From Pseudomonadota bacterium (GTDB lineage: Bacteria; Pseudomonadota; Gammaproteobacteria; Burkholderiales; Gallionellaceae), in assembly GCA_021782995.1 (NCBI GenBank), contig JAJXUI010000003.1, positions 1 to 64,000 of the forward strand: a DNA stretch of 64,000 nt, in the 5' to 3' direction. Numbering within the stretch: position 1 is the stretch's first letter; each line of letters starts with the position of its first letter. Of the stretch, positions 1,369 to 59,359 are shown one piece after another. The position numbers were made by a program, and so were the translations under genes. The notes under the pieces were generated by a model. It searched no databases and was not told the DNA's origin. It was given only the letters and a program-made list of their open reading frames with translations.

Positions 1369-1932
1369 ATGAACGGGACGGTCAAACCATCGCATTCGCG
1401 CATTTTCCTTGCGCTGTGGCCCAATGCTGCCGAGCAGGCGGCGCTGGCCGGCTGGCAGGCGTCATTGAAAGCGTCGTGCAAAGGCAGGCTGATGCGCCAG
1501 GCCAACCTGCATGCGACGCTGGCCTTTATCGGGGCTGCCCGGGCGCAGCAGGTGGCGGCTGCCATGGACGCGGCAAAGCAAGTGCGGGGGCAGGCATTTG
1601 TCGTGCACTGGGACACTTTGTGCTACTGGCCGCACAGCCACATTGTGCATGCGGCGCTGTCGCAAATACCGGCTGCGTTGATTGCGCTCGAGGCGCAATT
1701 GAGGTCACAACTGGCGATTCACGGGTTCGAGCTTGCGCAGCGGGATTTCTTGCCGCATGTCACGCTGGTGCGAAATGCACGCTGTGGCGAGCATGAGTTG
1801 CCAGAAGTTGTTGCGGTGGAATGGCGGGTGCTGGCGTTTTCGCTGATGCAGTCGGTGAATGACGGAGAGGGGACGCACTACATTGAGTTGCAGCGTTTTC
1901 CGCTGGCCGGTGAAAAATTTTTAACGTTATGA
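1369..1932 (+). CDS. thpR: RNA 2',3'-cyclic phosphodiesterase (2'-5' RNA ligase family)
   Basis: This 187-aa protein belongs to the 2H phosphoesterase superfamily and is predicted to hydrolyse 2',3'-cyclic phosphate ends of RNA in the cytoplasm. The two catalytic HxTx motifs are visible as HATL (near residue 46) and HVTL (near residue 128), with the usual spacing and family length. The N-terminal RIFLALWP strand is also typical. The ATG at 1369 is the only reasonable start, although no strong ribosome binding site precedes it. It is divergent from the FAD oxidoreductase and convergent with the downstream CMD-family gene, so it is probably a single-gene unit. Confidence 0.9.
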   Translation: MNGTVKPSHSRIFLALWPNAAEQAALAGWQASLKASCKGRLMRQANLHATLAFIGAARAQQVAAAMDAAKQVRGQAFVVHWDTLCYWPHSHIVHAALSQIPAALIALEAQLRSQLAIHGFELAQRDFLPHVTLVRNARCGEHELPEVVAVEWRVLAFSLMQSVNDGEGTHYIELQRFPLAGEKFLTL

Positions 1933-2004
1933 ATATATTATGCTAATCGCCATATCCGGGCCTGCCGCCCGGCCCGGGAAGGCTCACCCGGATGGGTGCC
2001 CGGC

Positions 2005-2679: not shown

Positions 2680-3279
2680 TCAGTTATTGTGTATGCGTAT
2701 GCTCGACATCGCGGGCAGCAGTTGCTTGATGACGTCGGTATTGTTCTGGTTTTTTGCCATCAGCATGACGCCTTCAAAGTATGCCAGCATGGCTTGCGCG
2801 GTTGCATCGGCATTGATGTGGTTCAGCGTACCCGAGTCGTTTGCTTCCTCAAGCGTATTGCGTATCAGTGTATGAAATTTTTTGAAAATCTGTTCCAGTC
2901 TTGCGCGTATGACTTCATCGTGGGTCGACACTTCATTGGCCAGGTTGCCAAAAGGACAGCCCAGTACCATGCCGGTTGTCTGGTGCAGTTGCAACTGGAA
3001 CTCGTAAGCCAGTTGGGTAAAGCGTTCCAGCCGGGCCAGCGGCGGCAGCTCGTCGATAAACGCCTTGTCGCCCAGCCTTTCCTTCATGTCGAGGTAAAAC
3101 GCATCCAGCATGGCCAGTACAAGTTCCTGTTTGCTCGGAAAAAAGTGGTAAAAACTGCCTTTCTTCACACCGGCATGGTCGCAAATCGCGGCTACGCCCA
3201 CTTCTGCATAGCTGTTGGCATAAATCAGATCCCGGGCTGAGTCGAGGATGCGCTGTCGGGTGTCGCATGTGTTTTCCAT
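2680..3279 (-). CDS. TetR/AcrR-family transcriptional regulator
   Basis: This 199-aa protein has a classical TetR N-terminal helix-turn-helix: TRQRILDSARDLIYANSY, then VAAICDHAGVKKGSFYHFFPSKQEL (residues 8-52). The C-terminal ligand domain resembles the group with a conserved GCPFGNLANE segment near residue 110. It should act as a ligand-responsive repressor. Two matching palindromes, one 13 nt upstream of its own start (3293-3308) and one upstream of the downstream CMD-family gene (2613-2628), suggest autoregulation plus control of that gene. The ligand is unknown; an electrophile or quinone would fit the redox target but is a guess. Confidence 0.9.
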   Translation of the reverse strand: MENTCDTRQRILDSARDLIYANSYAEVGVAAICDHAGVKKGSFYHFFPSKQELVLAMLDAFYLDMKERLGDKAFIDELPPLARLERFTQLAYEFQLQLHQTTGMVLGCPFGNLANEVSTHDEVIRARLEQIFKKFHTLIRNTLEEANDSGTLNHINADATAQAMLAYFEGVMLMAKNQNNTDVIKQLLPAMSSIRIHNN

Positions 3280-3308: not shown

Positions 3309-3410
3309 GTCAATAGGGTGCTTCGATCGTGCAAGGTTGAATTGCAAGCGGATTTACACTGGGAGGGCAGGGCGAAACAGTGGATTAAGGCGAAGCAGGA
3401 GGCAAGAGAA

Positions 3411-3443
3411 ATATATAATATATTGATTATATTATATATTATC
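3411..3443. repeat. AT-rich palindromic motif (TATAATATAATCA family)
   Basis: The segment reads on the minus strand as ATAATATATAATATAATCAATATATTATATAT, strongly AT-rich and nearly palindromic, in a region of roughly 53 percent GC. The same core (ATATAATCA) recurs at several other gene borders in this window. Confidence 0.6.
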
Positions 3444-3810
3444 TGCGAAATACATCCGGGCGTTCCGGCCGGTTGAATTGTGGGCGTTCCGGCCGATCGA
3501 TCTTGACTTGCGAGGGGCGATCTTCCATGCGGTTGCGCGACTGGAAATCGCGTCCATAGCTGCCTTCCGCCAGACCGGAATCGTCCTGTGGTTCGGCTGG
3601 TTTTTGTTCAACGACGGGTTGCTGCTTGTTATTTGCGGCAGGGGCGGTGCCACCAATGCGCTGGCGCATTTTCTGGCGGATGCTGGAGTATTCTTCATAG
3701 CTCATGCCGCGGCGTTGCGCAGGATCCGGTAGCACCAGGTCATATGCCAGCGCGGATCCTGCAAACATGCTCAATAGTGCACAGAGTGTTAATTGGCCGA
3801 GTTTAGTCAT
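3439..3810 (-). CDS. Small periplasmic protein with RPERP-rich tail, function unknown
   Basis: This 123-aa protein is not assigned to a family. It has a clear Sec signal peptide (MTKLGQLTLCALLSMFAGSALA, cleavage after ALA near residue 22). A charged mature part contains MSYEEYSSIRQKMRQRIGG, then a low-complexity linker, and the C-terminus repeats RPERPQ/NRPERP. The similar RPERP ending of the 4649-5119 product suggests the two are functionally linked. It lies downstream of the outer-membrane barrel gene on the same strand (28-nt gap), probably in one operon. The end of the gene is followed by the AT-rich palindromic motif at 3411-3443. Confidence 0.65.
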   Translation of the reverse strand: MTKLGQLTLCALLSMFAGSALAYDLVLPDPAQRRGMSYEEYSSIRQKMRQRIGGTAPAANNKQQPVVEQKPAEPQDDSGLAEGSYGRDFQSRNRMEDRPSQVKIDRPERPQFNRPERPDVFRR

Positions 3811-6003: not shown

Positions 6004-7325
6004 TGGCGTTGCAGCGCAGTCGTCCATCGCTGTTTCGCAGCACGGTGCTGACGGTGGCATTTGCGCTGCTGGTCATGCAGCTGGTGATATTTGCGGTCAG
6101 CGCCTATTACATCCTGCTGCCGATGATACGCCGTTCGACAGATGACCTGGCTGCATTGATGGTGCTGTCTGCGCAGACCTGGGCCGAGCTGCCACCGCAT
6201 ACGCGTCCGGACTTCGAGCTGGAGCTGGCGCGCCAGCACAACCTGTGGCTGCTGGACAGCGCAACCATACTGCCTGACGAAAACAATCATATTCCCTACC
6301 TGATGCTGCTGAAAAGTGCCTTGCAGGCCCGCACCGGCAAGCCCACGCACATGAAGAAAACCGAATTCGACAAGACCTGGTACTGGGTCGAGTTCAAGGG
6401 TGGCGACAAACCTATCAGCATCGGCTTTCCCGAAGATCGACTGGGCGTGCAATCACCGCTTGCCATTGCGCTGATCATGCTGGCGACTTTCGTGCTCTCC
6501 ATCCTGACCTCCATCATCCTGGCGAGACGCATCGTGCAGCCCTTGCAGAAGCTGGCTGCAGCGGCACGCCATGTGGGGGCGGGCACTACGCCGGAAAAAT
6601 TGCCGGAAGAAGGGGTGCAGGAGCTGGCGGAGCTTGCGCATACCTTCAATACGATGGCGCAACAGGTGCAGGCATTGCTGGCAAATAGAACCACCTTGCT
6701 GGCGGGCATTTCGCATGACCTGCGCACGCCGCTGGCGCGCATGCGGATTGCGGTGGAAATGCTGTCTGAGGATGCTGCGCCGAAACAGGTTGCGCGCATG
6801 CGCCAGGACATTGACGAAATGAACCGGCTGATCGGTGAGTTTCTCGCATTCAGCCGGGGGCTGGAAAAGGAGACGCCACAGGAAACGGATGTCCGCGAGT
6901 TGATGCAGACGCTGACAGACAATGTGCGCGCTGAAAATGCCGCGATCCTGTTGCAGGATTGCCCGGCATGCATATGCAAGGTGGGGCAGATGGCACTGCG
7001 CCGCATTGTTTCCAACTTGCTCAGCAACGCAATGCGCTATGGTGAGGGCAAGGAAATCGGACTGGCATGCCGCTGCGATGACGATGTGCTGGTGATCAGC
7101 GTGCTCGACCGTGGTCCCGGCATTCCGCCGGAGGAAGTGGAAAATGTGTTCCGTCCGTTTTACCGGCTGGAGTCGTCGCGCAGCATCACCACCGGGGGCA
7201 GCGGACTGGGGCTTGCCATTACCCGGCAGCTTGCGGATGTGAATGGCTGGTCGATCGAGTTGCTGCCGCGCGCAGGCGGCGGTACGGAAGCGCGTTTAAC
7301 CATACCATTGCTTCTTAAATTATAA
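6003..7325 (+). CDS. EnvZ-like sensor histidine kinase
   Basis: Starting at the ATG overlapping the regulator stop codon (6003) gives 440 aa. There is a transmembrane helix near residues 18-40, a periplasmic loop of about 115 residues, a second helix near 155-178, then a HAMP linker. The dimerisation motif GISHDLRTPLARMR has the phospho-acceptor His (near residue 237). The ATP-binding domain shows NLLSNAMRYG (N box), DRGPGIPPEE (G1) and GGSGLGLAI (G2). It pairs with the regulator at 5287 and probably senses an envelope signal. The gene ends in an AT-rich motif copy shared by several gene borders. Confidence 0.92.
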   Translation: MALQRSRPSLFRSTVLTVAFALLVMQLVIFAVSAYYILLPMIRRSTDDLAALMVLSAQTWAELPPHTRPDFELELARQHNLWLLDSATILPDENNHIPYLMLLKSALQARTGKPTHMKKTEFDKTWYWVEFKGGDKPISIGFPEDRLGVQSPLAIALIMLATFVLSILTSIILARRIVQPLQKLAAAARHVGAGTTPEKLPEEGVQELAELAHTFNTMAQQVQALLANRTTLLAGISHDLRTPLARMRIAVEMLSEDAAPKQVARMRQDIDEMNRLIGEFLAFSRGLEKETPQETDVRELMQTLTDNVRAENAAILLQDCPACICKVGQMALRRIVSNLLSNAMRYGEGKEIGLACRCDDDVLVISVLDRGPGIPPEEVENVFRPFYRLESSRSITTGGSGLGLAITRQLADVNGWSIELLPRAGGGTEARLTIPLLLKL

Positions 7326-7349
7326 TAATATAATCAACATATTATTGCG
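7321..7349. repeat. AT-rich palindromic motif (TATAATATAATCA family)
   Basis: TATAATAATATAATCAACATATTATTGCG spans the convergent ends of the sensor kinase and the histidine phosphatase. It matches the elements at 3411-3443, 24611-24637 and 26842-26864. Confidence 0.6.
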
Positions 7350-7899
7350 AACCCATGGCGTTTGAATTGCGCCACTCAAGGTCCAGCCTGCCACAGTTTT
7401 CCAGCGCGTTGAACACCACTGTAGCCGGGTCTTCAACGGTCAGGGCCAGCGCGGCGATGATGGGATTTTCATGCGACACCGCGAGGATATGCCCTGCCGG
7501 AAATTGCTGCGCCAGTTCATCGAGAAAACGCTTCACCCGTGCCATTTGCTCCAGGAATGTTTCACCATGTGGCGTGCGATAGTGCAGCGGATTCAGCCTG
7601 ACCTGGTCGTTGAACAGGTGCACCGGCTGGCCATCGAGACCGGATTTCCTTTCATTCAGCCGTGCGTCTATCTGCAATTCAAGTGCGTGATGTTGCAGCA
7701 GGATGTGTGCAGTCTGCTGCGCGCGCGGAAATTGCGAGGCGAAGGCGTGCGTGAATTTTTCATCACGCAGCGCTTCTGCACGCGCAACAGCCTGTTCGCG
7801 CCCCTTGTCGGTGAGGCCTATCGGTTTGCCCGGATCGTCGCTGATGAAATTTCCGGCATTGGCCACGCTTTCACCATGGCGGATCAGGGTGATTTTCAT
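7342..7899 (-). CDS. Histidine phosphatase family protein (phosphoglycerate mutase-like)
   Basis: This 185-aa protein begins MKITLIRHGESVANA, the RHG motif carrying the catalytic phospho-histidine of the branch-1 histidine phosphatase superfamily. The second catalytic His is in LAVSHENPI near residue 140, and ERKSGLDG supplies the expected middle acidic region. Substrate cannot be deduced; homologues range from sugar-phosphate phosphatases to SixA-type protein phosphatases. It is convergent with the sensor kinase and divergent from cytochrome b561. Confidence 0.85.
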   Translation of the reverse strand: MKITLIRHGESVANAGNFISDDPGKPIGLTDKGREQAVARAEALRDEKFTHAFASQFPRAQQTAHILLQHHALELQIDARLNERKSGLDGQPVHLFNDQVRLNPLHYRTPHGETFLEQMARVKRFLDELAQQFPAGHILAVSHENPIIAALALTVEDPATVVFNALENCGRLDLEWRNSNAMGSQ

Positions 7900-8886: not shown

Positions 8887-10008
8887 TTATGCCTGGTGCG
8901 ATCGGGCAGTCCTGTTTTCTCCATCGTGTGCAATGCGGTCCAGTGCTTGCAGAACCTCCATGCTGGCGGCTTCCGTCTTTGCCATCAGCTCAAGCGCCAG
9001 GTCCATGTTGCCTTTTGCAAATGCATCCATCGCGCCACGCCCGGACTGATGCACTGACTTGTGAGGTGCATCCATCTCGCGAAAGCCATCCAGTTGTGAA
9101 TAAAGGCTCTGGCCATCACCATTGAAATACCATTTCCCCAGGCGGCATTCCGTGTGCGAGGCAAAACTTTCCGGTGTACGGGTGGATAGTCCCATCAATA
9201 CCTTGTACAGCTCGAATTTGTAAAGGATGTGGTCGATCTTGGCGACTTCTACAAAACTGCGCAGCGAAGATCCCGAGATGGTATTTTCCATGCGCGTGGA
9301 AAGGTCCAGCAGCTGACCCAGATTATTCATCACCATGCCGACTTCCTGGCTGAAGGCATCGGATTTGTGGGTCCATTTGTTCATTTGCTCGTGGGATTTT
9401 GTGGTGTCATCCTGAATGATGGCAACCAGGCCGGAAATGTCGTTGGTCGCAGTAGAGGTGCGCTCGGCAAGTTTGCGAACTTCGTCCGCCACCACGGCAA
9501 AGCCACGCCCCATTTCGCCGGCGCGGGCGGCTTCAATCGCGGCATTCAGCGCAAGGAGGTTGGTCTGGTCTGCCACTTCCTTGATGATCTGCAGGATACT
9601 GCCAATTTGTCCTACACGCTGGGCGAGATTCTGTACATGTTCGGCAGTCTGGCGGGTTTCCCGTGACAGGGATTCCAGGTTGCTGGCAATATTGGCCACT
9701 GCCGAGCGGTTCCGAGAAGAGATGCCGGCAGCTTCGCTGGCGTGATCCTTTTCTTCCTTCATGGCGTTGGCTACGCTGACCTGTGACTCCTGGATGGCAC
9801 TGAATGAATCGCCAAATGCCAGCATGCTCTGGTGCATGTTCCGGAAATTTTCCTGTTGATGTTCGGAGTCCTGCAGGGCCATCTGGGTGCTGGCCAGTTC
9901 ATCGCGCAGCTGGTCAATTTCCTCGATGAGCCGGCTGTTATCCTGTCGGGACTTGTCCAGTTCTGCTTGCAGGGTGGCAGATTGCGCCTTGTACCGATTG
10001 AAAAACAT
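8887..10008 (-). CDS. Soluble methyl-accepting chemotaxis protein with C-terminal CZB domain
   Basis: This 373-aa protein has no transmembrane segment. An N-terminal coiled coil (residues 1-55) leads into an MCP signalling hairpin with the conserved tip [18 protein letters not shown] followed by [18 protein letters not shown] (near residues 145-185). The C-terminal part has the chemoreceptor zinc-binding pattern: IDHILYK, then [15 protein letters not shown] and HKSVH. CZB receptors are known to sense zinc or hypochlorous acid. The protein should act in the cytoplasm through CheA/CheW, not encoded here. The ATG follows a strong GGAGG site. Confidence 0.92.
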
Positions 10009-10220
10009 GATTCCTCCGGAAAATTATCGATTGCCTGTTTGGGTCACTGTTGCCAGATTGTTGCAGAGAGCGGTGTGCTTCTTCCTGATTTTCGACAACG
10101 CCTGCTGAATCTTGAGTCCATTTGTGAGAAAGTGCTGGTATTTATCTTAACTATTTGAATAAATTATATTATTTATCGCGCTGTCAAAAATCGAGTTTCG
10201 ATGTTCCAGGCAAGCGTCAA

Positions 10221-10961
10221 TCAGCCTTCAAGCAATGCCTTGATGACAGCGCCCGCCAACAGGTAACCAAATAGCGGTGGCATATAACTGATGGTGCCGT
10301 TCACGGCACGGGCGCGCCCCTGGCCCTCAACGGGTTCCGGGGGAAGTGGGTCTGCAGGGGCTTCATCGGAAAATACCGTCAGCACACCCTTGCGGATTTT
10401 GTGGTGACGCAACAGTCGCTTGCGCATTTGCCTCGCCAACGGACACATTTCGGTCTGGCTGATATCGGCCAGTTTCACGCGGGAGGGATCGAGCCGGTTG
10501 CCGGCACCCATGCTGCTCGCCACTCTCAGGCCGCGCTTGTAGCTTTCGGCCACCAGTGCCGCCTTGCAATTCAGTGAATCAATGCAATCGATCACATAGT
10601 CTGCGCTCGCAGGCACCAGATCATTCACGTTTTCAGCAGTGATGAAGGTGCGCGTGACGCTGGCATCGCAGGCGGGATTGATGTCGCGGATGCGTGCGAG
10701 CATCAGCTCGGCCTTGGGCTGGCCGATGCTGGAATGCAGCGCGAGCAGCTGGCGGTTGATATTGCTGGCCACCACCACATCGTGGTCGATCAGGGTGAGT
10801 TTGCCGATGCCGGCGCGCGCCAGGGCTTCCGTGCAATAGGAGCCTACACCGCCGAGCCCGGCGACGAAAACATGTTTGGCGGAAAGTTTTGCCAGACCCT
10901 CATCGCCGACGAGGATCTGCGTGCGGGTGAATTGCGGGGGAATATTGTGCATGGCGCGCAT
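10221..10961 (-). CDS. tcdA: tRNA threonylcarbamoyladenosine dehydratase
   Basis: This 246-aa E1-like enzyme (also called CsdL) converts t6A to cyclic ct6A at tRNA position 37 using ATP. The Rossmann nucleotide loop is VFVAGLGGVGSYCTEALARAG (near residues 30-50), followed by DHDVVVASNINRQ, typical of ThiF/MoeB-like enzymes, and DCIDSLNCKAAL. The C-terminal NGTISYMPPLFGYLLAG matches the TcdA ending. The start overlaps the tatD stop by one base (TAATG), so translation is coupled. A second in-frame ATG (MHNIPPQF) nine bases inside is also possible. Confidence 0.9.
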   Translation of the reverse strand: MRAMHNIPPQFTRTQILVGDEGLAKLSAKHVFVAGLGGVGSYCTEALARAGIGKLTLIDHDVVVASNINRQLLALHSSIGQPKAELMLARIRDINPACDASVTRTFITAENVNDLVPASADYVIDCIDSLNCKAALVAESYKRGLRVASSMGAGNRLDPSRVKLADISQTEMCPLARQMRKRLLRHHKIRKGVLTVFSDEAPADPLPPEPVEGQGRARAVNGTISYMPPLFGYLLAGAVIKALLEG

Positions 10962-18660: not shown

Positions 18661-19629
18661 GTGTCACAAGATAACCTGAAACAACTGATTGCGGCGGACA
18701 TGTCTGCCGTGGATCAGGTCATCCGCAACCGTCTGCATTCGGAAGTCGTGCTGGTCAGCCAGATTGGCGAATATATCGTCAACAGTGGCGGCAAGCGCTT
18801 GCGTCCGTCGCTGGTTGTGCTGTCTGCGCTCGCTTTCGGTTATCAGGGCAAACATCATCATGATCTCGCTGCGGTGGTGGAGTTCATCCACACCGCCACG
18901 CTGTTGCATGACGATGTGGTGGATGACTCCGATATGCGTCGTGGCCAGGCTTCGGCCAGCGCATTGTTCGGCAATTCCGCCAGTGTCCTGGTCGGCGATT
19001 TCCTGTATTCGCGTGCGTTCCAGATGATGGTGGAAGTGGGCGACATGCGCGTGATGCAGACGCTGGCGGATGCGACCAACATCATTGCCGAAGGCGAAGT
19101 GCTGCAGTTGCTGAATTGTCATGACGCGAGCGTGACTGCAGAAAATTACCTGCGGGTGATCTACTGCAAGACGGCCAAGCTGTTTGAGGCCGGCATGCGC
19201 CTGGGTGCGATCATCAGCAAGGCGGATGCCGCAGCCGAACAGGCCGTGGCGGAATATGGCGTGCATCTCGGCACGGCGTTCCAGCTGGTGGATGATGTGC
19301 TGGATTATTCCGGCGATGCCGAAGCCATCGGCAAGAACCTGGGTGACGACCTGGCAGAAGGCAAACCGACCTTGCCGCTGATTTATGCGATGCAGCACGG
19401 CAATGCAGAGCAGGCTGCGGTGATCCGTGTGGCGGTCGAGCAGGGCGACATCGGCAGGTTTGATGACGTCCTGAAAATCGTGAAGCAGACCGGTGCACTG
19501 GATTACACCCGCCAGCAGGCAAAGCGTGAAGCGGAGACGGCGATTGCCGCCATTGCCGGTCTGCCTGAATCCATCTACAAGACTGCGCTGGTACTGCTGG
19601 CGCAGTTCGCTGCCGAGCGCGAATTCTAA
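18661..19629 (+). CDS. ispB: Octaprenyl diphosphate synthase (trans-polyprenyl synthase)
   Basis: This 322-aa enzyme elongates FPP with IPP to make the side chain of ubiquinone. The first Asp-rich motif is LLHDDVVDDSDMRRG (near residue 82), the second is LVDDVLDYSGD (near residue 210), and GGKRLRPSLVVL is the N-terminal substrate motif. An in-frame TGA ends just before GTG at 18661, which forces the GTG start. The nearby GAGGAAA (18633) fits better to an overlapping ATG at 18651 that reads MVLSVTR and stops at 18674 inside ispB, so the mini-ORF may couple translation. Confidence 0.92.
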   Translation: MSQDNLKQLIAADMSAVDQVIRNRLHSEVVLVSQIGEYIVNSGGKRLRPSLVVLSALAFGYQGKHHHDLAAVVEFIHTATLLHDDVVDDSDMRRGQASASALFGNSASVLVGDFLYSRAFQMMVEVGDMRVMQTLADATNIIAEGEVLQLLNCHDASVTAENYLRVIYCKTAKLFEAGMRLGAIISKADAAAEQAVAEYGVHLGTAFQLVDDVLDYSGDAEAIGKNLGDDLAEGKPTLPLIYAMQHGNAEQAAVIRVAVEQGDIGRFDDVLKIVKQTGALDYTRQQAKREAETAIAAIAGLPESIYKTALVLLAQFAAEREF

Positions 19630-19726
19630 AAATTTAATTAAATCAAATAATTACATTTCTGCTGACATCGATTGCTGATCACCCCTGCACGCGCGTCACC
19701 CAACCCTATAGAGATCAAGCAGCCTG

Positions 19727-22462: not shown

Positions 22463-24613
22463 TTATGGTTGTGTGGACGCTGCCCCTGTCTGGCTGGCCA
22501 TGGCGGGGGCGTTGCTGCTTGCGCTGACGGGTTGCTCGCTTTGTGCTGCAGGGCCTGCAACGGGTTCGCCAGAATCTGCGGCGGGTGCAGCCGATGCTGA
22601 TGAGGATGTGCTGGCGGGTTCGGTGGCGGCTACGCCAGAGGCGGCACCTTGAGCCAGGTCGGGCAGCTTCGGTGCCTGCATGCTGGGCAGCATCAGGTGC
22701 CATGACAGTTGCGACAGATCCTGCTGATCTTGCAGATATTTATAACGGTCTTCGGTGAGGCCATTCGAGGCTTCGGCCGTACGCAATATTTTCGGTTTGA
22801 TGAAGATCATCAGGTTGGTCTTGCTGCTCTTGCGGGTCTCATAGCGGAACAGCCAGCCGATCAGGGGAATGTCGCCCAGCAGTGGCACTTTGTATTCACC
22901 CTTGTTGACCTGGTTCTGGATCAGGCCGCCGAGCACCAGGGTCTGGCCATCGTTGACCAGCACCGAGGTGTCCAGCGAGCGTTTGCTGGTGATGATGCCT
23001 GCGGGATTTGAGGTGTCGTCCACACTGGAGACTTCCTGGTAGATCACCATCTTCACGGTGCCGCTTTCCGAAATCTGCGGCTTGATTTTCAGCGTGAGGC
23101 CGACATCCTTGCGCTCTATGGTCTGGAACGGGTTGGGGTTGGCGGTGGTGCCCTGCTGCGAGCCGGTGATGAAAGGAACGTTCTTGCCGATAACGATCTT
23201 GGCCTCTTCGTTGTCCAGCATCATCAGGTTGGGCGTGGAAAGGATGTTGGCATTGGTATCGGTCTGCATGGTGCGGGCGATGGCGCCAATATTGTTGTTG
23301 CGCATGATGCCGATATTGAGGCCGTCACCCAGGGTGGCCGTGCCCGCATTGATGGCGGCCGCGGTGGTATTGAGGCTGGGGTTGGCGGCAGAGAAATTGG
23401 TGGCGCCGCCATATTGTGTACCATGCCCGTCCGCTGCGCCTGCCATCCATTGCACGCCAAAGTCGGCGGACTTGTCTGCATTCACTTCAGCGATCAGCGC
23501 TTCGACGAATATCTGCGCGCGCCGCACATCCAGTTTTTCGATCACTGCGCGCAGATTGTTATAGACATTGGGCGGGGCCGTGATGATCAGCGAATTGGTG
23601 GCATTATCGGCCTGTATCATGCCGCCACCGGAGGGAGTGGCGGCGGTGGAGTGCGTGGCGGTTGTGGCGGGAGATTGCGGGGTGGCAGGCGCGCTGCTGG
23701 AAGCAGCTGCAGCGCTGTCGCCAGAGAGGATGGAGCGCAATGTCTGCGCGAGTTTTGCTGCCTCGGCATTCTTCAGGTAGACCACATGCATATTGCCCAG
23801 CGTCCCGGTTTCCACATCCAGTTTCTGCACCAGCTCCTGGATGCGGGCAAGTTTCTCAGGGTTGTCGGTACGCAACAGCAGGCTGTTGGTGCGCGGATCG
23901 GCCAGCAGGATGAAGCGCTGGCTGGTGTCCGCGCCGCCTGCCGGCGCGCCAGCGATGGAGCCCTCCAGCATGAGGCGATTGATGGTCTGCGCCAGTTCGA
24001 CTGCGGAGGCCAGCTTGACCGGGATGATGACCGGATCAAATTTTCCAGGCTGGTCTATGGTGTTGACGATCTGTTCGATGCGCCGCATGTTGCTCGCATA
24101 GTCGGTGACCACCAGCGTGTTGTTGTTGGGATAGGCAACCACGATGTTGTTGGGCGGAATCAGTGGCCGCAATACTGGCACCAGTTGCGATGCAGACTCA
24201 TATTGCAGCACAAACACACGGGTGATCAGTTTTTCGCCGCTCACTTTTCCATGCACATTGGATACATACAGCTTGGCGTCAGCTTCAGGCAGGATTTTGG
24301 TAATGCCGCCAGACTCGACTGCGGCAAAACCCTGCATGCGCAGCGTGGAAAGGAGGATGTCGTAGGCCAGCGGGGCGGCAACCGGTGTGGCGGAAATGAT
24401 GTTGATGTTGCCTTTTACCCTGGGGTCAACCACGAAGTTCCTGCCGGTGATATGCGAGATGGCCTTGATGACCTCTTCAATATCCGCATTCACAAAATTC
24501 AGCGAAACCTTTTCCTCGGCGGCATAAGTCGCGGTCATCGGCATGAGGGTTGTTGCGGCAAATGCAAGCATCAGCAGTGACAAGGCGAGCAGGCGGTGTG
24601 ATCTATCTAGCAT
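22463..24613 (-). CDS. gspD: Type II secretion system secretin GspD
   Basis: This 716-aa outer-membrane channel subunit has a signal peptide (to about ATYA, residue 31). An N0 domain begins [20 protein letters not shown], then N1-N3 repeats ([40 protein letters not shown]). The secretin core includes [10 protein letters not shown] and [10 protein letters not shown]. An Ala/Ser/Thr-rich insertion (about residues 295-335) lies in N3, and the C-terminus has an Ala/Ser/Pro-rich tail of about 85 residues, where a pilotin could bind; no pilotin gene is recognisable here. An AT-rich motif copy sits at its 5' end (24611-24637). Confidence 0.96.
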
Positions 24614-24637
24614 ATTGATTATATTATACTAATTATG
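24611..24637. repeat. AT-rich palindromic motif (TATAATATAATCA family)
   Basis: On the minus strand this reads TTAGTATAATATAATCAATATGCTAG and covers the ribosome binding region and the start codon of gspD. It shares the ATATAATCAAtAT core with the copies at 3411, 7321 and 26842. Confidence 0.6.
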
Positions 24638-26681: not shown

Positions 26682-26836
26682 GGGTGTCTCCCTGAATGCT
26701 TGATTGGTAATCTCCCGCTTTATTGGCTGATTTTTGAACTCTGAGCGGGGTTGTCCTCCTAATCGTTAATTGTATGTAAATTTATCATTAATTGGTATGG
26801 GGTGTTGCAAAAATGTAACCGTTGCAACGTGCAGAA

Positions 26837-27592
26837 TTAATTTAATATAATCAACTTATTACGGTTGCTGGTGAAGAAAAATTCACGTTTGTGTACTGAG
26901 GTATTTTGCGTGGCATGCATCAGTTGTTCAATCTGATGCTGGTAAGGCAGGATGACTTCCTTCAATTCAGGCGTATCACAACGCAGGGTTTGCTCTGCTG
27001 TGCCCTGAGCGGCGGCATAAATGCAATGCCCAGCAATGCCCGGATGGCTTGCAGCAAATTGGTGCAATAGCGACTCAAGCTGCCTGAGTTTGATTTGTGC
27101 TTCAATTTCCTGTTGGGGCCTGTCGCTATTTCGTGGTTGAAGTTGTTGCTGCCTGTCGCGTGCTTGCATTTCGGCATGATGCTGGCTAAAAAATGCATCG
27201 CCTTCGACCGTAAGGTTTGAAAAGGGGGTGGGTGCGGGTCCTGGGAATGCGATACCTGTGATGGGTTCCTTGTCGTTATTTGGATCGGTAGCCTGATCGG
27301 GTGGTACTGCAGCTGGCTCAGGTTTGTCATTTACAGGTTCTGATGCCAGAACCGGTGAAGGTTTTTGTATGGTCAGCAGTTTTTTTTCAGGTTTTATCGG
27401 GGGCAATACCTTCTGTCTGGGGATCAGTGAAACTTGAAGCGGGCCGAATGGAGGCGTTTGAGGTTGCTGCTGGTGCTGGAAGGCAAGATATAACTGCAAT
27501 GCGGCCAACAAGATGCCATGAATCAGCAAGGATATAAATGCGCTTGCCGTCATTCTGGAGCCGGGTTGAAGACTGAAGTTAAGGGCGTACAT
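26837..27592 (-). CDS. TonB-like proline-rich inner-membrane protein
   Basis: This 251-aa protein has an N-terminal membrane anchor (about residues 15-37, TASAFISLLIHGILLAALQLYLAF), as in TonB, and a following Pro/Lys-rich segment (PLQVSLIPRQKVLPPIKPEKKLL). The C-terminal half is not a recognisable TonB domain; it holds a Gln-rich helical stretch and then HCIYAAAQGTAEQTLRCD with two cysteines. It could energise or anchor the neighbouring exported proteins, but this is speculation. The last codons (KLIILN) fall inside a copy of the AT-rich TATAATATAATCA motif, so the native C-terminus may have been changed by it. Confidence 0.6.
   Translation of the reverse strand: MYALNFSLQPGSRMTASAFISLLIHGILLAALQLYLAFQHQQQPQTPPFGPLQVSLIPRQKVLPPIKPEKKLLTIQKPSPVLASEPVNDKPEPAAVPPDQATDPNNDKEPITGIAFPGPAPTPFSNLTVEGDAFFSQHHAEMQARDRQQQLQPRNSDRPQQEIEAQIKLRQLESLLHQFAASHPGIAGHCIYAAAQGTAEQTLRCDTPELKEVILPYQHQIEQLMHATQNTSVHKREFFFTSNRNKLIILN
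26842..26864. repeat. AT-rich motif copy at the end of the TonB-like gene
   Basis: TTAATATAATCAACTTATTACGG covers the last codons and stop region of the TonB-like gene and resembles the copy at 7321-7349, including the ATCAAC-TATT-aCGg flank. Confidence 0.5.
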
Positions 27593-30604: not shown

Positions 30605-31195
30605 GTTGACCTCTGTCGAAAGTGCTGATTTTGCGGAATATGCCGTATGAATAACGGGCTATTCGCCTATGCTACGAACGTACTGCAATCAGGTGGGGTT
30701 GTCAATAATACATAAGTACCAGGCCATTTATTTTTCAGCGACTTAAATGCACTGCCGGTGCTTGGCCCAGATTGGGCAGGAGCACTTCAGGCTGCATGAT
30801 GGTTTCTGCCGGGTGCATCCTATACCAGAAAATTCGTGCAGCTCGTCTCATGGATTTGAAATTACGCTTGTGGTGTGAGTGATGCAAAAGCAAACTGACT
30901 GATTGCATTTATTGATGCATCAATGGCGGAATTCCGATTGTGTAGGGTGAATATTCGTATCTATTTGAATATATTGATATTTTATAAATAAAGGCCTGCT
31001 CGTTGCTTATGTATTGATATAGATGGAAAGTGTGGATTGAGTGGAGCAGATACGGGGTGTGGCGGGTTTCCGGGCAGGGAATCGATAATAACTTTGCCAT
31101 TTCTCCCCGGCTGTTTCATGCTGACTTGCGTGCAAAAACGCTGGGCTATAATTGTAAGGATATCAGGCTAAATTTATTCAGGAGACGAGGCAGAC
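30605..31195. other. 591-bp divergent promoter region between the two T2SS-linked transcripts
   Basis: I see no convincing gene; the short minus-strand ORF at 30909-31100 lacks a credible start or recognisable protein. The segment 30950-31010 is AT-rich. A gspG promoter candidate has -10 TATAAT at 31147-31152, and GGAGACGAGG at 31181-31190 is a strong ribosome binding region for gspG. The other end must carry the promoter for the lipoprotein/915-aa unit. Confidence 0.6.
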
Positions 31196-31636
31196 ATGCA
31201 AGGTGTTAACAATATAAATCATTCGCGCGGTTTTACCTTGATCGAGATCATGATCGTGGTGGTCATCATCGGCATCCTGGGGGCGTTTATCGTGCCCAAG
31301 ATCATGGGTCGTCCGGATGAGGCGCGCATCATTGCGGCAAAACAGGATATTGCCACCATTTCGCAGGCACTGAAATTGTACAAGCTGGACAACATGCGCT
31401 ATCCAACCACCGAACAAGGCTTGCAGGCGTTGGTGAAAAAGCCGGTGATCGACCCGATTCCGCCCAACTGGAAAGGCAATGGTTATCTGGAGCGTTTGCC
31501 GGCCGACCCCTGGAAAAATGCCTATCAATACCTGCAACCTGGCCTGCATGGCGAATTTGATGTGATGAGTCTGGGCGCAGATGGCGCGCAGGGTGGTGAC
31601 GGAAATGATGCGGATATCGGCAACTGGGAGCTGTGA
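31196..31636 (+). CDS. gspG: Type II secretion major pseudopilin GspG
   Basis: This 146-aa prepilin-like protein has a short leader and the cleavage/methylation site RG-FTLIEIMIVVVIIGILGAF (Glu at +5). The C-terminal calcium-site region GEFDVMSLGADGAQGGDGNDADIGNW is diagnostic of GspG. It polymerises into the pseudopilus after processing by a prepilin peptidase not encoded here. It starts the plus-strand arm; a 51-nt gap follows before gspH. Confidence 0.97.
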   Translation: MQGVNNINHSRGFTLIEIMIVVVIIGILGAFIVPKIMGRPDEARIIAAKQDIATISQALKLYKLDNMRYPTTEQGLQALVKKPVIDPIPPNWKGNGYLERLPADPWKNAYQYLQPGLHGEFDVMSLGADGAQGGDGNDADIGNWEL

Positions 31637-33192: not shown

Positions 33193-34098
33193 ATGGTAGA
33201 GATAAAAATAAAATATAATCAAGGCGTTGCGATAATTCTGGTGATGCTGGTGGTGACCCTCGCGACCACGCTGGCAATATATATCGCCAACCAGCAGACC
33301 CTGTGGCAGCGCCAGGTGGAAAGCCAGTTTGAGCGCGCACAGGCGCGGCAACTGGGAATGGCCGGCATCAATTGGGCGCGTGCCGTGCTGGCTGAAGACC
33401 AGCGCACCACGACGATAGACAGCGACAAGGAAATCTGGGCGTTGCGGTTGCCGGCGATCCCGGTTGAGGGGGGCGAAGTCATCGGTGCGATAGAAGACCG
33501 GCAGGGTTTGTATAATCTGAACAATGTTGCCTCCAACGTGGCACAATTCCAGAGATTGCTGAATGTGCTGGGCTTGCCGGAAGAGCTGGCGGCGACGCTC
33601 GCGGACTGGGAGGATGCGGACAGCGATACGCTGCCGGGTGGTGCAGAGGATAATTATTATCTGGGACTTGCACAGCCATACCGGGCGGCCAACAGAAGCC
33701 TGGCGGAAATTGGAGAGTTGATAAAAGTAAAGGGATACGACAGCAAGACGATCGATACTTTACGGCCATTTGTAACGGTGCTGCCAGCAACACGTACTGC
33801 AATCAATGTGAATTTTGCGCCAGCTGAAGTGCTGGTGGCAGTGGTTGAAGGGCTGAGCCTTTCGGATGCGCGTGCGCTGGTACAGATGCGGCAAAATGAG
33901 CCGTTCAGGGACAAGGTGTCTTTCAAGCAGTTGCTGCCGCAGGCGGGGAAAAATGTAATGGATGATCAGGTAGACGTGAAAAGCGATTTCTTCTGGGTGA
34001 CCGGGCGGGCGACGGTAGGCAAGTCGCAGGTGCTCACCCAGGCACTGCTGCAGCGCGCGGTCAATTGGCCCTCTGTCGTCTGGCAAAGCGTGCAATGA
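33193..34098 (+). CDS. gspK: Type II secretion minor pseudopilin GspK
   Basis: I choose the ATG at 33193 (MVEIKIKYNQGVAIILVML, 301 aa). GspK is the large tip pseudopilin and lacks Glu at +5; after the leader comes GVAIILVMLVVTLATTLAIYIANQQ. The soluble part has IEDRQGLYNLNNV and INVNFAPAEVLVAV, the helical-domain insertions typical of GspK. The codons for KYNQG lie in an AAATATAATCAAGG motif copy. It overlaps gspL as ATGA. Confidence 0.92.
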   Translation: MVEIKIKYNQGVAIILVMLVVTLATTLAIYIANQQTLWQRQVESQFERAQARQLGMAGINWARAVLAEDQRTTTIDSDKEIWALRLPAIPVEGGEVIGAIEDRQGLYNLNNVASNVAQFQRLLNVLGLPEELAATLADWEDADSDTLPGGAEDNYYLGLAQPYRAANRSLAEIGELIKVKGYDSKTIDTLRPFVTVLPATRTAINVNFAPAEVLVAVVEGLSLSDARALVQMRQNEPFRDKVSFKQLLPQAGKNVMDDQVDVKSDFFWVTGRATVGKSQVLTQALLQRAVNWPSVVWQSVQ

Positions 34099-38506: not shown

Positions 38507-39878
38507 AGGCAATCCTGGATCACGCCTCGCACCCCGCGTGCTGGTGGTGGATGATGAACCGGACATCCTTGAGCTGCTTGAGCTCACACTGTTGCGCATG
38601 GGTCTGGAAGTGGATCGTGCGCACAATGTGCAGGAGGCCATCCATAAAATTTCCGGGCAGCAATACCAGTTGTGCCTGACTGACATGCGTATGCCGGATG
38701 GCGAAGGACTGGACGTTGTCAGGCACATCACAGCCAATAACCTGGATATTCCGGTGGCAGTGATAACAGCCCACGGTAATCTTGATAATGCGGTGGCAGC
38801 ACTCAAGGCAGGAGCCTTTGATTATTTGTCCAAACCGGTATCGCTGGATCAGCTCAGAGCATTGATCCATGCAGCCATCAGTTTGCCGGCCGCAGCAGCA
38901 AGCAACAAAAAAGGGGCGCGTGAACTGCTGGGGAAATCTCACGCCATGCAGCAGGTGCGCGAGTTGATCGGCCGTGTCGCACGCAGTCAGGCGCCGGTGC
39001 ATATCAGTGGTGAGTCGGGCAGTGGCAAGGAGCTGGCGGCAAGGCTGATCGTTGAACAGAGTGGACGTGCGGATCAGCCCTTGATTGCGGTGAATTGTGG
39101 TGCGATTCCGGAAAATCTGATGGAAAGCGAATTTTTCGGCTATCGCAAAGGGGCTTTTACTGGCGCAGAACAAGATCGGGAGGGTTTCTTCCAGGCGGCC
39201 AATAAAGGAACGCTGTTTCTCGATGAGGTGGCAGATTTGCCGCTGAACATGCAGGTCAAGCTGCTGCGTGCGATCCAGGAGCGGAAAGTGCGCAAAGTCG
39301 GTGCGACCGAAGAGGAGGCTGTTGATGTGCGTATCCTGAGTGCCACGCATCACAACCTGGCGGAGCTGGTGAGGCAGGGGAAATTCCGGCAGGACCTTTT
39401 TTATCGCTTGAACGTGATCACCCTGCCGATGCCGGCCTTGCGCGAGATGCGGGAGGATATTCCGGAGATTGCCCGGCAGATCCTGAACCGCTTGCGCAGC
39501 AATGCGGCGGTTGAATTGTCACCGGAAGCACTCCTGGCTTTAAGCAACTATGATTTTCCTGGCAATGTACGTGAGCTGGAAAACGTGATCGAGCGTGGCC
39601 TGGCGTTGTGCATGGATAACCGGATAGACGTCCAGGACCTGCAGATTTTGCCGAACGAAACCGATTCCGCACATTCAGGACAGGGAATTCAGGGTAAGTA
39701 TCCGTTGACCGATTATCTGGATCGCATCGAGCGCGAAGCCATTCTGGAGGCTTTGGGGCAAACAGGCTTCAACCGAACAGCCGCGGCGAAAATCCTGGGG
39801 GTGACTTTCCGGGCATTGCGTTACCGTATGGCGCGCCTGGAAATCAGCGCACCTGCCGATGGCGAGTGTGATAAATAA
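38496..39878 (+). CDS. pilR: Sigma-54-dependent response regulator PilR
   Basis: The ATG at 38496 follows a GGAGG site and gives 460 aa. The receiver domain (residues about 15-130) has LVVDDEPDILELL and LTDMRMPDGEGL. The AAA+ domain shows the Walker A GESGSGKE (near residue 177), the sigma-54 contact loop KGAFTGAEQDREG, and Walker B TLFLDEVADLP. The Fis-type HTH is TAAAKILGVTFRALRYRMARL. PilR activates pilin promoters with RpoN; possible targets here include the adjacent T2SS genes, though I found no clear -24/-12 promoter. Confidence 0.94.
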   Translation: MRTEGNPGSRLAPRVLVVDDEPDILELLELTLLRMGLEVDRAHNVQEAIHKISGQQYQLCLTDMRMPDGEGLDVVRHITANNLDIPVAVITAHGNLDNAVAALKAGAFDYLSKPVSLDQLRALIHAAISLPAAAASNKKGARELLGKSHAMQQVRELIGRVARSQAPVHISGESGSGKELAARLIVEQSGRADQPLIAVNCGAIPENLMESEFFGYRKGAFTGAEQDREGFFQAANKGTLFLDEVADLPLNMQVKLLRAIQERKVRKVGATEEEAVDVRILSATHHNLAELVRQGKFRQDLFYRLNVITLPMPALREMREDIPEIARQILNRLRSNAAVELSPEALLALSNYDFPGNVRELENVIERGLALCMDNRIDVQDLQILPNETDSAHSGQGIQGKYPLTDYLDRIEREAILEALGQTGFNRTAAAKILGVTFRALRYRMARLEISAPADGECDK

Positions 39879-39896
39879 TATAATATAATCATGAAG
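39875..39896. repeat. AT-rich TATAATATAATCA motif copy between pilR and ampD
   Basis: AATAATATAATATAATCATGAAG runs from the pilR stop codon into the ampD start codon, so the motif itself supplies the ATG context of ampD. Confidence 0.6.
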
Positions 39897-40436
39897 ATAA
39901 GTGAATGTGGCTGGCTGAGTGGCGTACGCAGGCTGGCCTCGCCAAATTTCGACCCTCGTCCTGCCGGCTCCCGCATCGACATGCTGGTGATCCATAACAT
40001 CAGCTTGCCACCAGAACAGTTTGGTGGTGCGGAGATTGAAGATTTCTTTACCAACCGGCTGGATCATGATGCACATCCCTATTTTGCGCAGCTGAAGGGG
40101 GTGCGGGTGTCATCGCATTTCCTGCTCCGGCGTAACGGGGGGATTGTCCAGTTTGTGCCCTGTTCCCGGCGTGCCTGGCATGCGGGGGTTTCGGCATGGC
40201 AAGGCCGGACGCGCTGTAATGATTTTTCGATCGGCATCGAAATGGAAGGCAGTGATTTCATTGCGTTTACCGATGCACAATATGTCTCTCTGGCAAGACT
40301 GAGCCGCTTGCTGCTGCGCAAATACCCTTTGCGTCACCTGGTTGGTCATTCTGATATTGCGCCTGGACGCAAGACGGATCCCGGTCCGTATTTTGACTGG
40401 CAGCGCTATCTCTCCAGCATACAATTATCACGCTGA
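39891..40436 (+). CDS. ampD: 1,6-anhydro-N-acetylmuramyl-L-alanine amidase AmpD
   Basis: This 181-aa cytoplasmic amidase cleaves recycled anhydro-muropeptides. Zinc-binding residues are visible in IDMLVIHNISLPP (His near residue 34), RRAWHAGVSAWQG, and LVGHSDIAPGRKTDPGP (His near 150, Asp near 160). The length equals that of E. coli AmpD. It shares a peptidoglycan-recycling role with anmK further along. The start codon directly follows the pilR stop region with an AT-rich spacer and no clear ribosome binding site. Confidence 0.95.
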   Translation: MKISECGWLSGVRRLASPNFDPRPAGSRIDMLVIHNISLPPEQFGGAEIEDFFTNRLDHDAHPYFAQLKGVRVSSHFLLRRNGGIVQFVPCSRRAWHAGVSAWQGRTRCNDFSIGIEMEGSDFIAFTDAQYVSLARLSRLLLRKYPLRHLVGHSDIAPGRKTDPGPYFDWQRYLSSIQLSR

Positions 40437-43850: not shown

Positions 43851-43896
43851 ATATATATTATTTAATGAAATCAAATAGATAAGAGGGAGCTGGAAA

Positions 43897-46777: not shown

Positions 46778-48160
46778 ATGTTGCAAAGAACAGCGCTTCC
46801 TTACTTAGCTGATGTCGCCAGGTATTTTATGGCGATTGCAGATTTGCCATGGGCCATGTGGCTGGATAGTGGCGGGCGTGCACGCTATGACATCATCGTG
46901 GCACACCCTGCTGTGACCCTGGTGACGCAGGATGGGCAGACGCAGATCGAGTATCAGGGAAAGACCTCATTTTCAGACCTGCAGCCGTTGCAGTTGATCA
47001 GGCAGTATCTGGGCGAGTACAGCGAGACTCCGCCGGATATCCGTTTTGCCGGGGGGGCGCTGGGATATTGGTCCTATGATTTTGCGCGTTTACTGCATCC
47101 CTTGCCGAACATGGCGAAGGATGCAGAGCAACTGCCGGAAATGGCTGTAGGTATTTATGACTGGGCATTACAGGTCGATCATCAGGAAAAGCGGGCTGAG
47201 CTGATTTCAATGTTCAGGTTTCCCCAGACTGAAAGTCATTTCGGGCAGGTGCTTGACAGGCTGCAGAACCCAGGCGGGGCTCAGCAAGCGGGTTGCTTTA
47301 GCGTTGTGGGTCAAATCAGTTCGAATTTTGAGCGGCATGTGTACGCCCAGAAATTTGAAAGGATCAAGCATTTCCTTGCGGAAGGGGATTGCTACCAGGT
47401 CAATCTGGCGCAGCGCTTCAGTGCGCATGCGGAAGGAAATGCCTTGCCTGCCTACTTGGCATTACGTGAATTGAGTCCGGCACCGTATGCGGCTTTCATG
47501 AATTTTCCTTTTGTGCAGATACTCTGCGCTTCACCCGAGCAATTCCTGCAGCTGGATGCGGGCAGTGTGACAACACGTCCGATCAAGGGAACGCGACCGG
47601 TCAGGGCGGATGCAGAGGAAAATGCGGCGATGGTCAGTGAGCTGCAAAAAAGCAGCAAGGACCGGGCCGAAAACCTGATGATCGTGGATTTGTTACGCAA
47701 TGACCTGGGCAAGCACTGCAAAGCCGGCTCGGTGAAGGTGCCCGAACTTTTTAAAGTGGAGAGTTTCCGTACGGTGCACCATCTGGTCAGCACGGTTACG
47801 GGATCCTTGTCGCCTGACAGCGATGCACTGACCTTGCTTGCGGATTGTCTGCCGGGAGGTTCCATAACAGGAGCGCCCAAGCAACGTGCTATGGAAATTA
47901 TCGAGCTGCTGGAGCCGGATCGCAGGGGAGTGTATTGCGGGGCGATTGGTTATATCGGATTTGATGGCAGAATGGACACCAATATCGCCATACGCACGAT
48001 GGTGTATGGAAACGGAGAGATTCGATTATGGGCCGGGGGCGGGATCGTGGCTGATTCAGATGCGGCGTCCGAGTTTCAGGAAACGCTGGATAAAGCCGCA
48101 GCTATGCTTCAGGTCTTGTATCATTTCGGCGCCAGAAGAAAAATAGATGGAGATATATAA
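46778..48160 (+). CDS. pabB: Aminodeoxychorismate synthase component I
   Basis: This 460-aa enzyme aminates chorismate to ADC for folate synthesis, using ammonia from PabA (not in this window). The chorismate-binding domain has TRPIKGTRPVRADAEENAAMVSEL, DLLRNDLGKHCKAGSVKVPEL, and LLADCLPGGSITGAPKQRAMEII, which contain catalytic Lys and Glu residues of the PabB/TrpE family. The N-terminal domain is the usual all-beta Trp-binding-like part. The ATG at 46778 has no strong ribosome binding site. The pirin gene follows by 4 nt. Confidence 0.93.
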   Translation: MLQRTALPYLADVARYFMAIADLPWAMWLDSGGRARYDIIVAHPAVTLVTQDGQTQIEYQGKTSFSDLQPLQLIRQYLGEYSETPPDIRFAGGALGYWSYDFARLLHPLPNMAKDAEQLPEMAVGIYDWALQVDHQEKRAELISMFRFPQTESHFGQVLDRLQNPGGAQQAGCFSVVGQISSNFERHVYAQKFERIKHFLAEGDCYQVNLAQRFSAHAEGNALPAYLALRELSPAPYAAFMNFPFVQILCASPEQFLQLDAGSVTTRPIKGTRPVRADAEENAAMVSELQKSSKDRAENLMIVDLLRNDLGKHCKAGSVKVPELFKVESFRTVHHLVSTVTGSLSPDSDALTLLADCLPGGSITGAPKQRAMEIIELLEPDRRGVYCGAIGYIGFDGRMDTNIAIRTMVYGNGEIRLWAGGGIVADSDAASEFQETLDKAAAMLQVLYHFGARRKIDGDI

Positions 48161-48164
48161 TATT

Positions 48165-48863
48165 ATGATTATTTTAAGAAAATCAACCGATCGAGGACGT
48201 GCTGAACATGGCTGGCTGGATAGTTGGCACAGTTTCTCGTTTGCCGATTATCACGATCCGGCACATGTCAATTTTTCCGTCTTGCGTGTGATCAATGAAG
48301 ACAGGGTGGCCGCAGGTCAGGGGTTTGCCACGCACGGTCATCGTGATATGGAAATCCTCAGTTATGTTCTGAGCGGTTCCCTGCAACACAGGGACAGTAT
48401 GGGGAATGGCAAGGTAATGACGTGGGGTGAGGTGCAGCTGATGAGTGCCGGCACCGGCGTCATGCATAGTGAATTCAATCCGTCAGTCACGGAAGGGGTG
48501 CATTTTCTGCAGATCTGGATTGTGCCAAACCAGCAAGGCGTTACACCTGGCTATCAGCAAAAACATTTCAGTGCAGAAGAAAAGCGCGGGCGCTGGTGCT
48601 TGCTGATTTCACCCGATGGCAATTCCGGTTCCTTGAAGGTGCATCAGGCTGCAAATGTCTATGCGGCACTTGTAAATGGTGATGAGACGCTGTCGTTTGC
48701 AATTCCGCCGGGCAGGAATGTGTATCTGCATCTGGCAAGAGGTGCGGTGAGGTGTGGTGAGTATGCGCTTGCCGCTGGTGATGCACTGATGTTCAGCGGG
48801 GAGCATGCCTTGCAGCTGGAGCAAGGCAAGGAAGCAGAATTATTGTTGTTTGACCTGCCCTGA
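48165..48863 (+). CDS. Pirin-family protein (YhhW/quercetinase-like)
   Basis: I set the start at MIILRKSTDRGRAEHGWLDS (48165, 232 aa) rather than six codons earlier. The bicupin pirin fold has the metal ligands in FATHGHRDMEILSYVLSG (His, His) and VMHSEFNP (His, Glu). Family members have quercetin 2,3-dioxygenase activity or redox-sensing roles; the natural substrate is not known. Its 3' end overlaps the convergent spoT 3' end by 24 nt, which includes a G8 run just past the stop codon. Confidence 0.9.
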   Translation: MIILRKSTDRGRAEHGWLDSWHSFSFADYHDPAHVNFSVLRVINEDRVAAGQGFATHGHRDMEILSYVLSGSLQHRDSMGNGKVMTWGEVQLMSAGTGVMHSEFNPSVTEGVHFLQIWIVPNQQGVTPGYQQKHFSAEEKRGRWCLLISPDGNSGSLKVHQAANVYAALVNGDETLSFAIPPGRNVYLHLARGAVRCGEYALAAGDALMFSGEHALQLEQGKEAELLLFDLP

Positions 48864-54548: not shown

Positions 54549-54568
54549 TGGAATTCTGAATTTATTTC

Positions 54569-54584
54569 ATATAATCATATAGTT
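54569..54584. repeat. AT-rich ATATAATCATATAG motif copy upstream of erpA
   Basis: ATATAATCATATAG lies 20-35 nt upstream of the erpA start, sharing the ATATAATCA core with the copies at 3411, 7321, 24611, 26842, 33211 and 39875. Confidence 0.5.
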
Positions 54585-54601
54585 ATGCAAAGGAGATGGT
54601 C

Positions 54602-57455: not shown

Positions 57456-57590
57456 TTAAAATTCGGGTCTTGAATGGATTTTGCCAATCGGTCGATTTGT
57501 TATGATCGGCCTGTCTCAATTGCCAAGCATCTTAGCAGAAATGCATGTATGCTCAAAATTTAAATAAATACATAAAGTTATAGTTTGGGT

Positions 57591-58787: not shown

Positions 58788-59359
58788 TTTGTTTGGCGGG
58801 TAATTGTTACAACGACAATTAATATAATATAAACATATACTTATATAATTTACTGCAGAGAGAAGGCGCAATGCCAGCGGGCTTATGCCTGGGAAGCTTC
58901 AGCCTGATCCGGCCATAAAGTTTCGACAATGCTTGCCGATAAGCCTAAATAACTGGCACAAGAGTCAATATCGGGCGTGAATTATCGGCAGACAGAAGCT
59001 CAATGGAAATACTCAACCAGTACCAAGCTGACGTGAATAAACTGAACCCATTTCGAAATACGTAGCGGGTTTTGACTGCAACATGCAGGATCGAATGGAA
59101 AGTTAAGTCTACTGACGAAATGGATGATTAATGTCTGCCAAGATGTAGCTCTGCATTTCCATTTGACTATTCCAACCTGGGGCCGGACGTGATAATTGAA
59201 GTGCAAATGCACTGAAGCGTGAGCTGCAGCGAGCGGCAATTGATGCGATACTTGGCCAGAGGCATTGTTTTCAGGCTGGTGCATTGCGAGGGCTGTAAGG
59301 CACAGTTACCTTGTGCGGGCTATATTTATGACAGAAGTGGCGGACGATACGGCATACGC
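58788..59359. other. 572-bp intergenic region between tyrS and the MCP-like gene
   Basis: The segment after tyrS is AT-rich (58815-58850, TTAATATAATATAAACATATAC, related to the recurrent motif). I see only very short open frames, such as MEILNQYQADVNKLNPFRNT (59003-59065), without support. The track's early start for the MCP-like gene (59219) also falls here. Confidence 0.5.

Follow-up and report, generated by a model that had tools for sequence, protein, structure and literature searches.

The window analysed here, a 64-kb stretch of DNA at the start of one contig from a Gallionellaceae draft genome (G000; 2.75 Mb, 85% complete), carries near-identical AT-rich stretches at a succession of gene borders, and these raise the question of what kind of element recurs there and what it does. 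A sequence-only reading had listed seven near-identical cores, and all seven (7/7) are present, its coordinates being accurate to about 15 bases: ATATAATCA occurs at 3424(-), 7328(+), 24616(-), 26845(+), 33213(+), 39883(+) and 54569(+), compared with 0.35 copies expected from dinucleotide shuffling, and none of 100 shuffles reached seven. Across the whole G000 draft, the 13-mer TATAATATAATCA has 28 exact matches while its reversed control has none, and the genome-wide frequency therefore lies above random expectation. Chance arising from intergenic AT content is ruled out by the absence of reversed-control matches, together with the few or no matches in shuffles that keep local composition. 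An exact search for TATAATATAATCA in relatives returned no match in the four congeners (G001-G004) and, elsewhere, a single match, in G015 only.

Match to the IHF consensus

When the exact copies of TATAATATAATCA are aligned and the downstream bases are left free, an A directly follows the TCA in 20/27 copies, after which come four unconstrained or weakly constrained bases and then, at the positions expected from IHF spacing, T in 24/27, T in 26/27 and a purine in 27/27. Joined to this independently recovered TTR, TATAATATAATCA therefore yields the pattern WATCAANNNNTTR, which is one written form of the IHF consensus (PMC8942017), the other being WATCARNNNNTTR (PMC8421141). To judge from the sequence, TATAATATAATCA forms the left half of an IHF-type site and is followed, at the correct spacing, by the right half, NNNNTTR.

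The complete element in G000 is 33-36 bp long with the consensus AAATAATATAATATAATCAANWWRTTA, whose right half reproduces the IHF consensus WATCARNNNNTTR with its exact spacing. In G001 the consensus from an iterated matrix is AAAATATTCAATATAATCAAWTACTTACA, a dialect of its own. Both position weight matrices, each iterated on about 460 kb per species, contain an A-run at -14 to -12 from the core, and in both the conservation stops near -16 and +20; AT content is 82-100% across most of -14 to +5 and falls to the background level beyond about -20 and +20. The elements thus combine a WATCARNNNNTTR core at fixed spacing with an A/T-rich left arm bearing an A-tract, over a total of about 35 bp. In published IHF sites, 35 bp are likewise wrapped or footprinted, with the core on the right and, in the strongest sites, an A-tract on the left (PMC8421141).

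The core is exact in 116/145 sites of G001 and in only 44/137 of G000, where a further 59 have one mismatch. Intergenic enrichment of the IHF core amounts to 73 and 102 per Mb of genome in the two species, while the reversed core, two scrambles and versions with 3- or 5-nt spacers mostly give 0-11 per Mb (in G001, one scramble reaches 24 per Mb). Together, these observations make it highly probable that the elements are IHF-type sites, and we infer that they may be bound by IHF in vivo.

The genome also encodes part of the expected binding partner. An IHF beta gene is present in G000 (its product scores over the NCBIfam cut-off, and its closest solved relatives are IHF beta chains, e.g. 1ihf), with the residue that we take to be the equivalent of Arg46 in E. 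coli numbering, and there are two HU-like proteins in addition. IHF alpha was found in G001-G003. No ihfA was found in the 85%-complete G000 assembly; pheT, which is essential and lies side by side with ihfA in the congeners, is absent from the draft as well (loci L068-L070), and the missing ihfA is therefore likely to be an assembly gap.

The fifteen copies in the window

A matrix scan of the window finds 15 elements, five of which (at 1912, 10138, 19625, 30948 and 57552) had been overlooked by the sequence-only reading. Three lie where genes converge: 1912..1950 (-; score 33.2) at the 3' end of ORF 1369-1932, convergent with ORF 2005-2577; 7316..7354 (+; 34.8), in a convergent gap with stops at 7325 and 7342; and 19625..19663 (+; 37.9), in a convergent gap whose G001 orthologue carries a site in the same orientation. 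The copy at 3406..3444 (-; 42.9), from which that reading had started, has its IHF core at 3416-3428 and lies where ORF 3439-3810(-) stops, with a TetR-family gene (2680-3279, -) downstream of it. Four occupy tandem gaps, namely 10138..10176 (-; 45.3) between ORFs 8887-10008 and 10221-10961, 43853..43891 (+; 30.1) upstream of ORF 43897-45045, 54557..54595 (+; 29.5) upstream of an Fe-S biosynthesis gene (54596-54952), and 58815..58853 (+; 41.1) downstream of ORF 57591-58787. A further copy, 48148..48186 (-; 32.7), marks the junction of a chorismate-binding gene (46778-48160) and ORF 48165-48863. The copies at 43853, 48148 and 58815 are those previously described as weaker versions, and all three are true members.

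Of the remainder, 26833..26871 (+; 31.6) lies between ORFs 25686-26681(-) and 27659-30406(-), 30948..30986 (-; 37.3) in the gap before ORF 31196-31636, and 57552..57590 (+; 25.5), the weakest of all, in a divergent gap. Two overlap gene starts: 24598..24636 (-; 34.2) that of gspD (22463-24613, -), and 39871..39909 (+; 37.5) the start codon of an Amidase_2 gene (39891-40436), with an orthologous site in the same orientation in G001. Gene calls came from a simple, purpose-written hexamer-based finder, and start positions are therefore approximate.

The last copy, 33201..33239 (+; 32.2), is inside the 5' end of gspK (33193-34098), where, as had been proposed, it supplies coding residues: the leader K-I-K-Y-N-Q is encoded directly before the conserved GVAI. 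The positively charged leader of this pseudopilin (window 33193-33240; MVEIKIKYNQG before VAIILVML) thus comes from the element, and the IHF-type site doubles as a coding leader.

Two further observations concern similar DNA. At 45264-45302 of the window lies a different AT-rich stretch, TCAATAAAAAAATAG-TTTTTTT...GTGTGATAAGTTGCTGACTAT, which recurs in three congeners (L064 6754, L066 18136 and L067 6722) in seemingly similar places and is possibly a conserved promoter or leader. Elsewhere in G000, a single contig has two near-identical stretches separated by about 5.8 kb (C16:22864 and C16:28681; L007, L008), both of which contain the element; it has therefore been copied there by local duplication.

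Abundance, spacing and divergence between sister species

The conclusions on the elements draw on 804 kb sampled from G000, with 137 sites (4 in composition-preserving block shuffles), or 170 per Mb, and on 1.25 Mb from G001, with 145 (0 in shuffles), or 116 per Mb. From these densities we estimate some 470 elements per G000 genome and 380 per G001 genome. With hundreds of copies whose sequence is specific to the species, the proposal of a short dispersed repeat is borne out, as is the placement at gene borders, since 131/137 G000 sites lie in an intergenic gap or within 25 bp of one. Around 95% of G000 sites and 88% of G001 sites are intergenic, and occupied gaps hold one site in 123 cases and two in 4 (G000), or one in 126 and two in 1 (G001).

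Ordinary E. coli and lambda IHF sites likewise span about 35 bp, with a WATCARNNNNTTR core and an AT-rich left arm (PMC8421141), but the same G000 and G001 matrices find only 10 and 7 per Mb in a 300-kb sample of E. coli MG1655, against 170 here, and the left arm in G000 is a species-specific near-repeat. The bare IHF core is as frequent in the MG1655 sample as in G000 and G001. Among congeners, G002 has about 29 per Mb, on 103 kb only, and matrix scans of the G003 and G004 samples gave zero elements. IHF genes are present in both of these species, and an element-based architecture is therefore not required. In 229 genomes of the class, a strict IHF-type pattern was most abundant in G000 (71; control 0), followed by 51 against 7 in the control, 48 against 11 and 41 against 8. 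By GspE comparison, the closest named relatives are Gallionellales/Gallionellaceae MAGs; the gspE-region loci of relatives served taxonomy only, matrix matches there being due to N runs or to genomes rich in AT. The history of the family is best described as a multiplication of IHF sites in one part of a single genus, after which the left arm drifted in concert across copies.

The sites are also spaced more evenly than expected. Relative to a null in which sites are placed at random in gaps matched for type and length preference, the coefficient of variation (CV) of the intervals is 0.694 versus 0.908 (sd 0.074) in G000 and 0.627 versus 0.927 (sd 0.072) in G001, and in neither species did any of 2000 simulations fall as low. 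Intervals are about 5.6 kb in G000 and 8.6 kb in G001, and pairs less than 1.5 kb apart are rarer than under the null (10% versus 19%, and 3.5% versus 12%, respectively). Even spacing holds under three nulls at most score thresholds, although in G000 the effect loses strength (P about 0.03-0.07) once a high threshold leaves few sites; no such regularity is seen for AT-rich islands that lack the element (CV 1.05-1.5). The effect was first seen on partial data and confirmed with added stretches, the two sets overlapping. No alternation of orientation along the chromosome was detected (68:59 and 71:71 in the two species). Orientation agrees with local GC skew in 57/137 sites of G000 and 60/145 of G001, slightly under half, and a weak link to replication direction is possible.

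Divergence between the two species was examined at 172 gaps with the same neighbours in both, of which 6 have a site in each species, 17 in G000 only and 9 in G001 only; sharing thus exceeds chance (odds ratio 5.5, P=0.007), with orientation unchanged in each of the six pairs (6/6). Furthermore, each copy of these six pairs scores higher by the matrix of its own species, the matrices having been trained on sets that include these copies. Shared positions and own-dialect scores together imply that the positions are partly old and that the left arm has changed in concert. At about 70% protein identity, the congener gaps are too diverged for base-by-base alignment and were compared by length alone; in relation to their orthologues, gaps occupied in G000 alone are longer than gaps free of sites (P=0.02), albeit noisily.

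Alternative readings and the proposed architectural role

The flanks of the elements contain no conserved sequence and no information, and complementarity between left and right flanks equals that of permuted flanks. No terminal inverted repeats or hairpins occur beyond the site itself, hairpins being no more frequent than in shuffled sequence. The idea of a preferred insertion or recombination sequence finds no support in these flanks, and site-bearing gaps tend, noisily, to be longer; a REP/BIME structure is ruled out by the uninformative flanks and their chance-level complementarity. The closest known kind is nevertheless the RIB elements of E. coli, here without REP palindromes: RIB/BIME-1 elements are dispersed, intergenic, present in many copies, equipped with an IHF site and placed at transcription-unit 3' ends (PMC2817692), and the present elements too are intergenic and lie toward 3' ends. 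In BIME-1, however, the IHF-binding sequence stands between two REP palindromes, while the Gallionellaceae flanks are devoid of inverted repeats or conservation. The Correia/NEMIS elements of Neisseria (155-bp form) similarly recur, dispersed, between genes and carry an IHF site (PMC2229807), but they are 105-155 bp long with terminal inverted repeats, whereas conservation here is limited to the site itself and such repeats are lacking.

Could the family then be a tiny non-autonomous mobile element, MITE- or REP-like, that carries an IHF site and owes its distribution to transposition rather than function? The functional IHF site of the Correia elements (PMC2229807), the longer gaps around G000-only sites (P=0.02), the confinement of the family to part of one genus and the Y1 transposase (PF01797) genes in all five genomes would all be consistent with this. 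Yet the copies have no terminal inverted repeats beyond the site, conserved flank or hairpin, Y1 transposases also occur in congeners without the family, and over-regular spacing and retained orientation are unexpected under random insertion; we regard this reading as unlikely.

Uptake-sequence dialects differ between related species, and uptake sequences often lie inside genes. A motif of this kind, spread by preferential uptake and recombination or another molecular drive, would owe its likeness to an IHF site to the recognition of bent AT-rich DNA. Uptake sequences (USS/DUS) also reach hundreds of copies or more, in both orientations and with significantly even genomic spacing (PMC1939737), and homogenised dialects at orthologous positions in G000 and G001 require some concerted process. 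However, the Gallionellaceae element is an AT-rich IHF-type site that is about 90-95% intergenic and has a loose core, with a copy-to-copy uniformity in G000 that is low for an uptake core, and it matches all nine constrained positions of the IHF core, the 4-nt gap and the A-tract offset. Its intergenic share of about 95% in G000 and 88% in G001 also contrasts with uptake sequences, at near 1965 copies (PMC1939737), and uptake-like drive is accordingly rather improbable. An architectural role, in compaction, was itself proposed for evenly spaced uptake sequences and later disputed (PMC1939737).

In tandem gaps, the sites are biased toward the stop of the upstream gene (mean 0.39-0.41; P=0.0004 in G001 and 0.016 in G000), as would be expected if IHF at 3' ends acted as a roadblock or boundary replacing hairpin terminators. 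RIB elements lie at such ends in E. coli, according to the title of Boccard and Prentki 1993 (cited in PMC2817692), and in G001 gaps of 60-400 bp intrinsic terminators are found in 2/88 with the element versus 41/367 without (P=0.008). No such deficit exists in G000 (P=0.5), however, both orientations are equally used, most transcription units have no element and spacing is set over kilobases, so that a role at transcription ends appears quite improbable.

Divergent gaps are depleted of sites: in G001 they hold 6/128 sites in 35 of 171 kb (20% of intergenic DNA), where about 26 are expected from length, and in G000 26 sites in 31 of 104 kb, where about 39 are expected. Since orientation relative to the neighbouring gene is also random (32:27 and 20:21 in the two species) and the sites tend toward stop codons, a sigma-70 promoter is not supported, and neither is the promoter activity once suggested by a TATAAT. 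Thus the dispersed repeat of the sequence-only reading stands, its insertion sequence and promoter find no support, and the IHF-type identity had escaped it. IHF is a classic regulator and some sites do lie upstream of genes, but the same random orientation, bias toward upstream stops and depletion of G001 divergent gaps make conventional regulatory sites upstream of promoters (e.g. for sigma-54 activation), merely numerous, the least probable of these readings.

An architectural main role, the likeliest for this dispersed family of IHF-type sites, seems to us about as probable as not, and, taken as a combined statement, IHF-type sites with such a role are what we favour, by a little. Each copy would present a single high-quality predicted IHF site, its 13-bp WATCARNNNNTTR core and 15-20 bp A/T left arm together spanning about the length wrapped by IHF. 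Several hundred such copies, one per gap, facing either way and for the most part outside promoter-only gaps, would allow IHF to bend the DNA by roughly 160 degrees at each, and the bends might pin plectoneme tips or loop ends, partitioning the chromosome into loops of similar size. IHF has been described to pin plectonemes and to split DNA into topological domains by bridging (PMC9519438). Chromosome folding or supercoil partition would then be the selected function.

More tentatively, some Gallionellaceae may possess a quasi-regular chromosome scaffold, encoded in the sequence and made up of standardised IHF wrap sites in their hundreds, at one per about 5-9 kb, whose spacing is selected, whose consensus has shifted in concert between sister species and whose positions are partly kept. 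What is new relative to IHF-binding interspersed repeats is the absence of REP palindromes, the even spacing and the species dialects; among open-licence papers, neither evenly spaced IHF sites nor these elements were found described, and a literature search turned up no account of even spacing of RIBs. That hundreds of copies have changed in concert from one sister species to the other poses the question of whether the sites co-evolve with the protein or are subject to molecular drive. For the question of whether DNA sequence sets the loops of bacterial chromosomes, an evenly spaced set of IHF-type sites, restricted to one genus and occurring in some of its species but not in samples of close, IHF-bearing relatives, offers a natural comparison, with loop or supercoil boundaries predicted at named coordinates.
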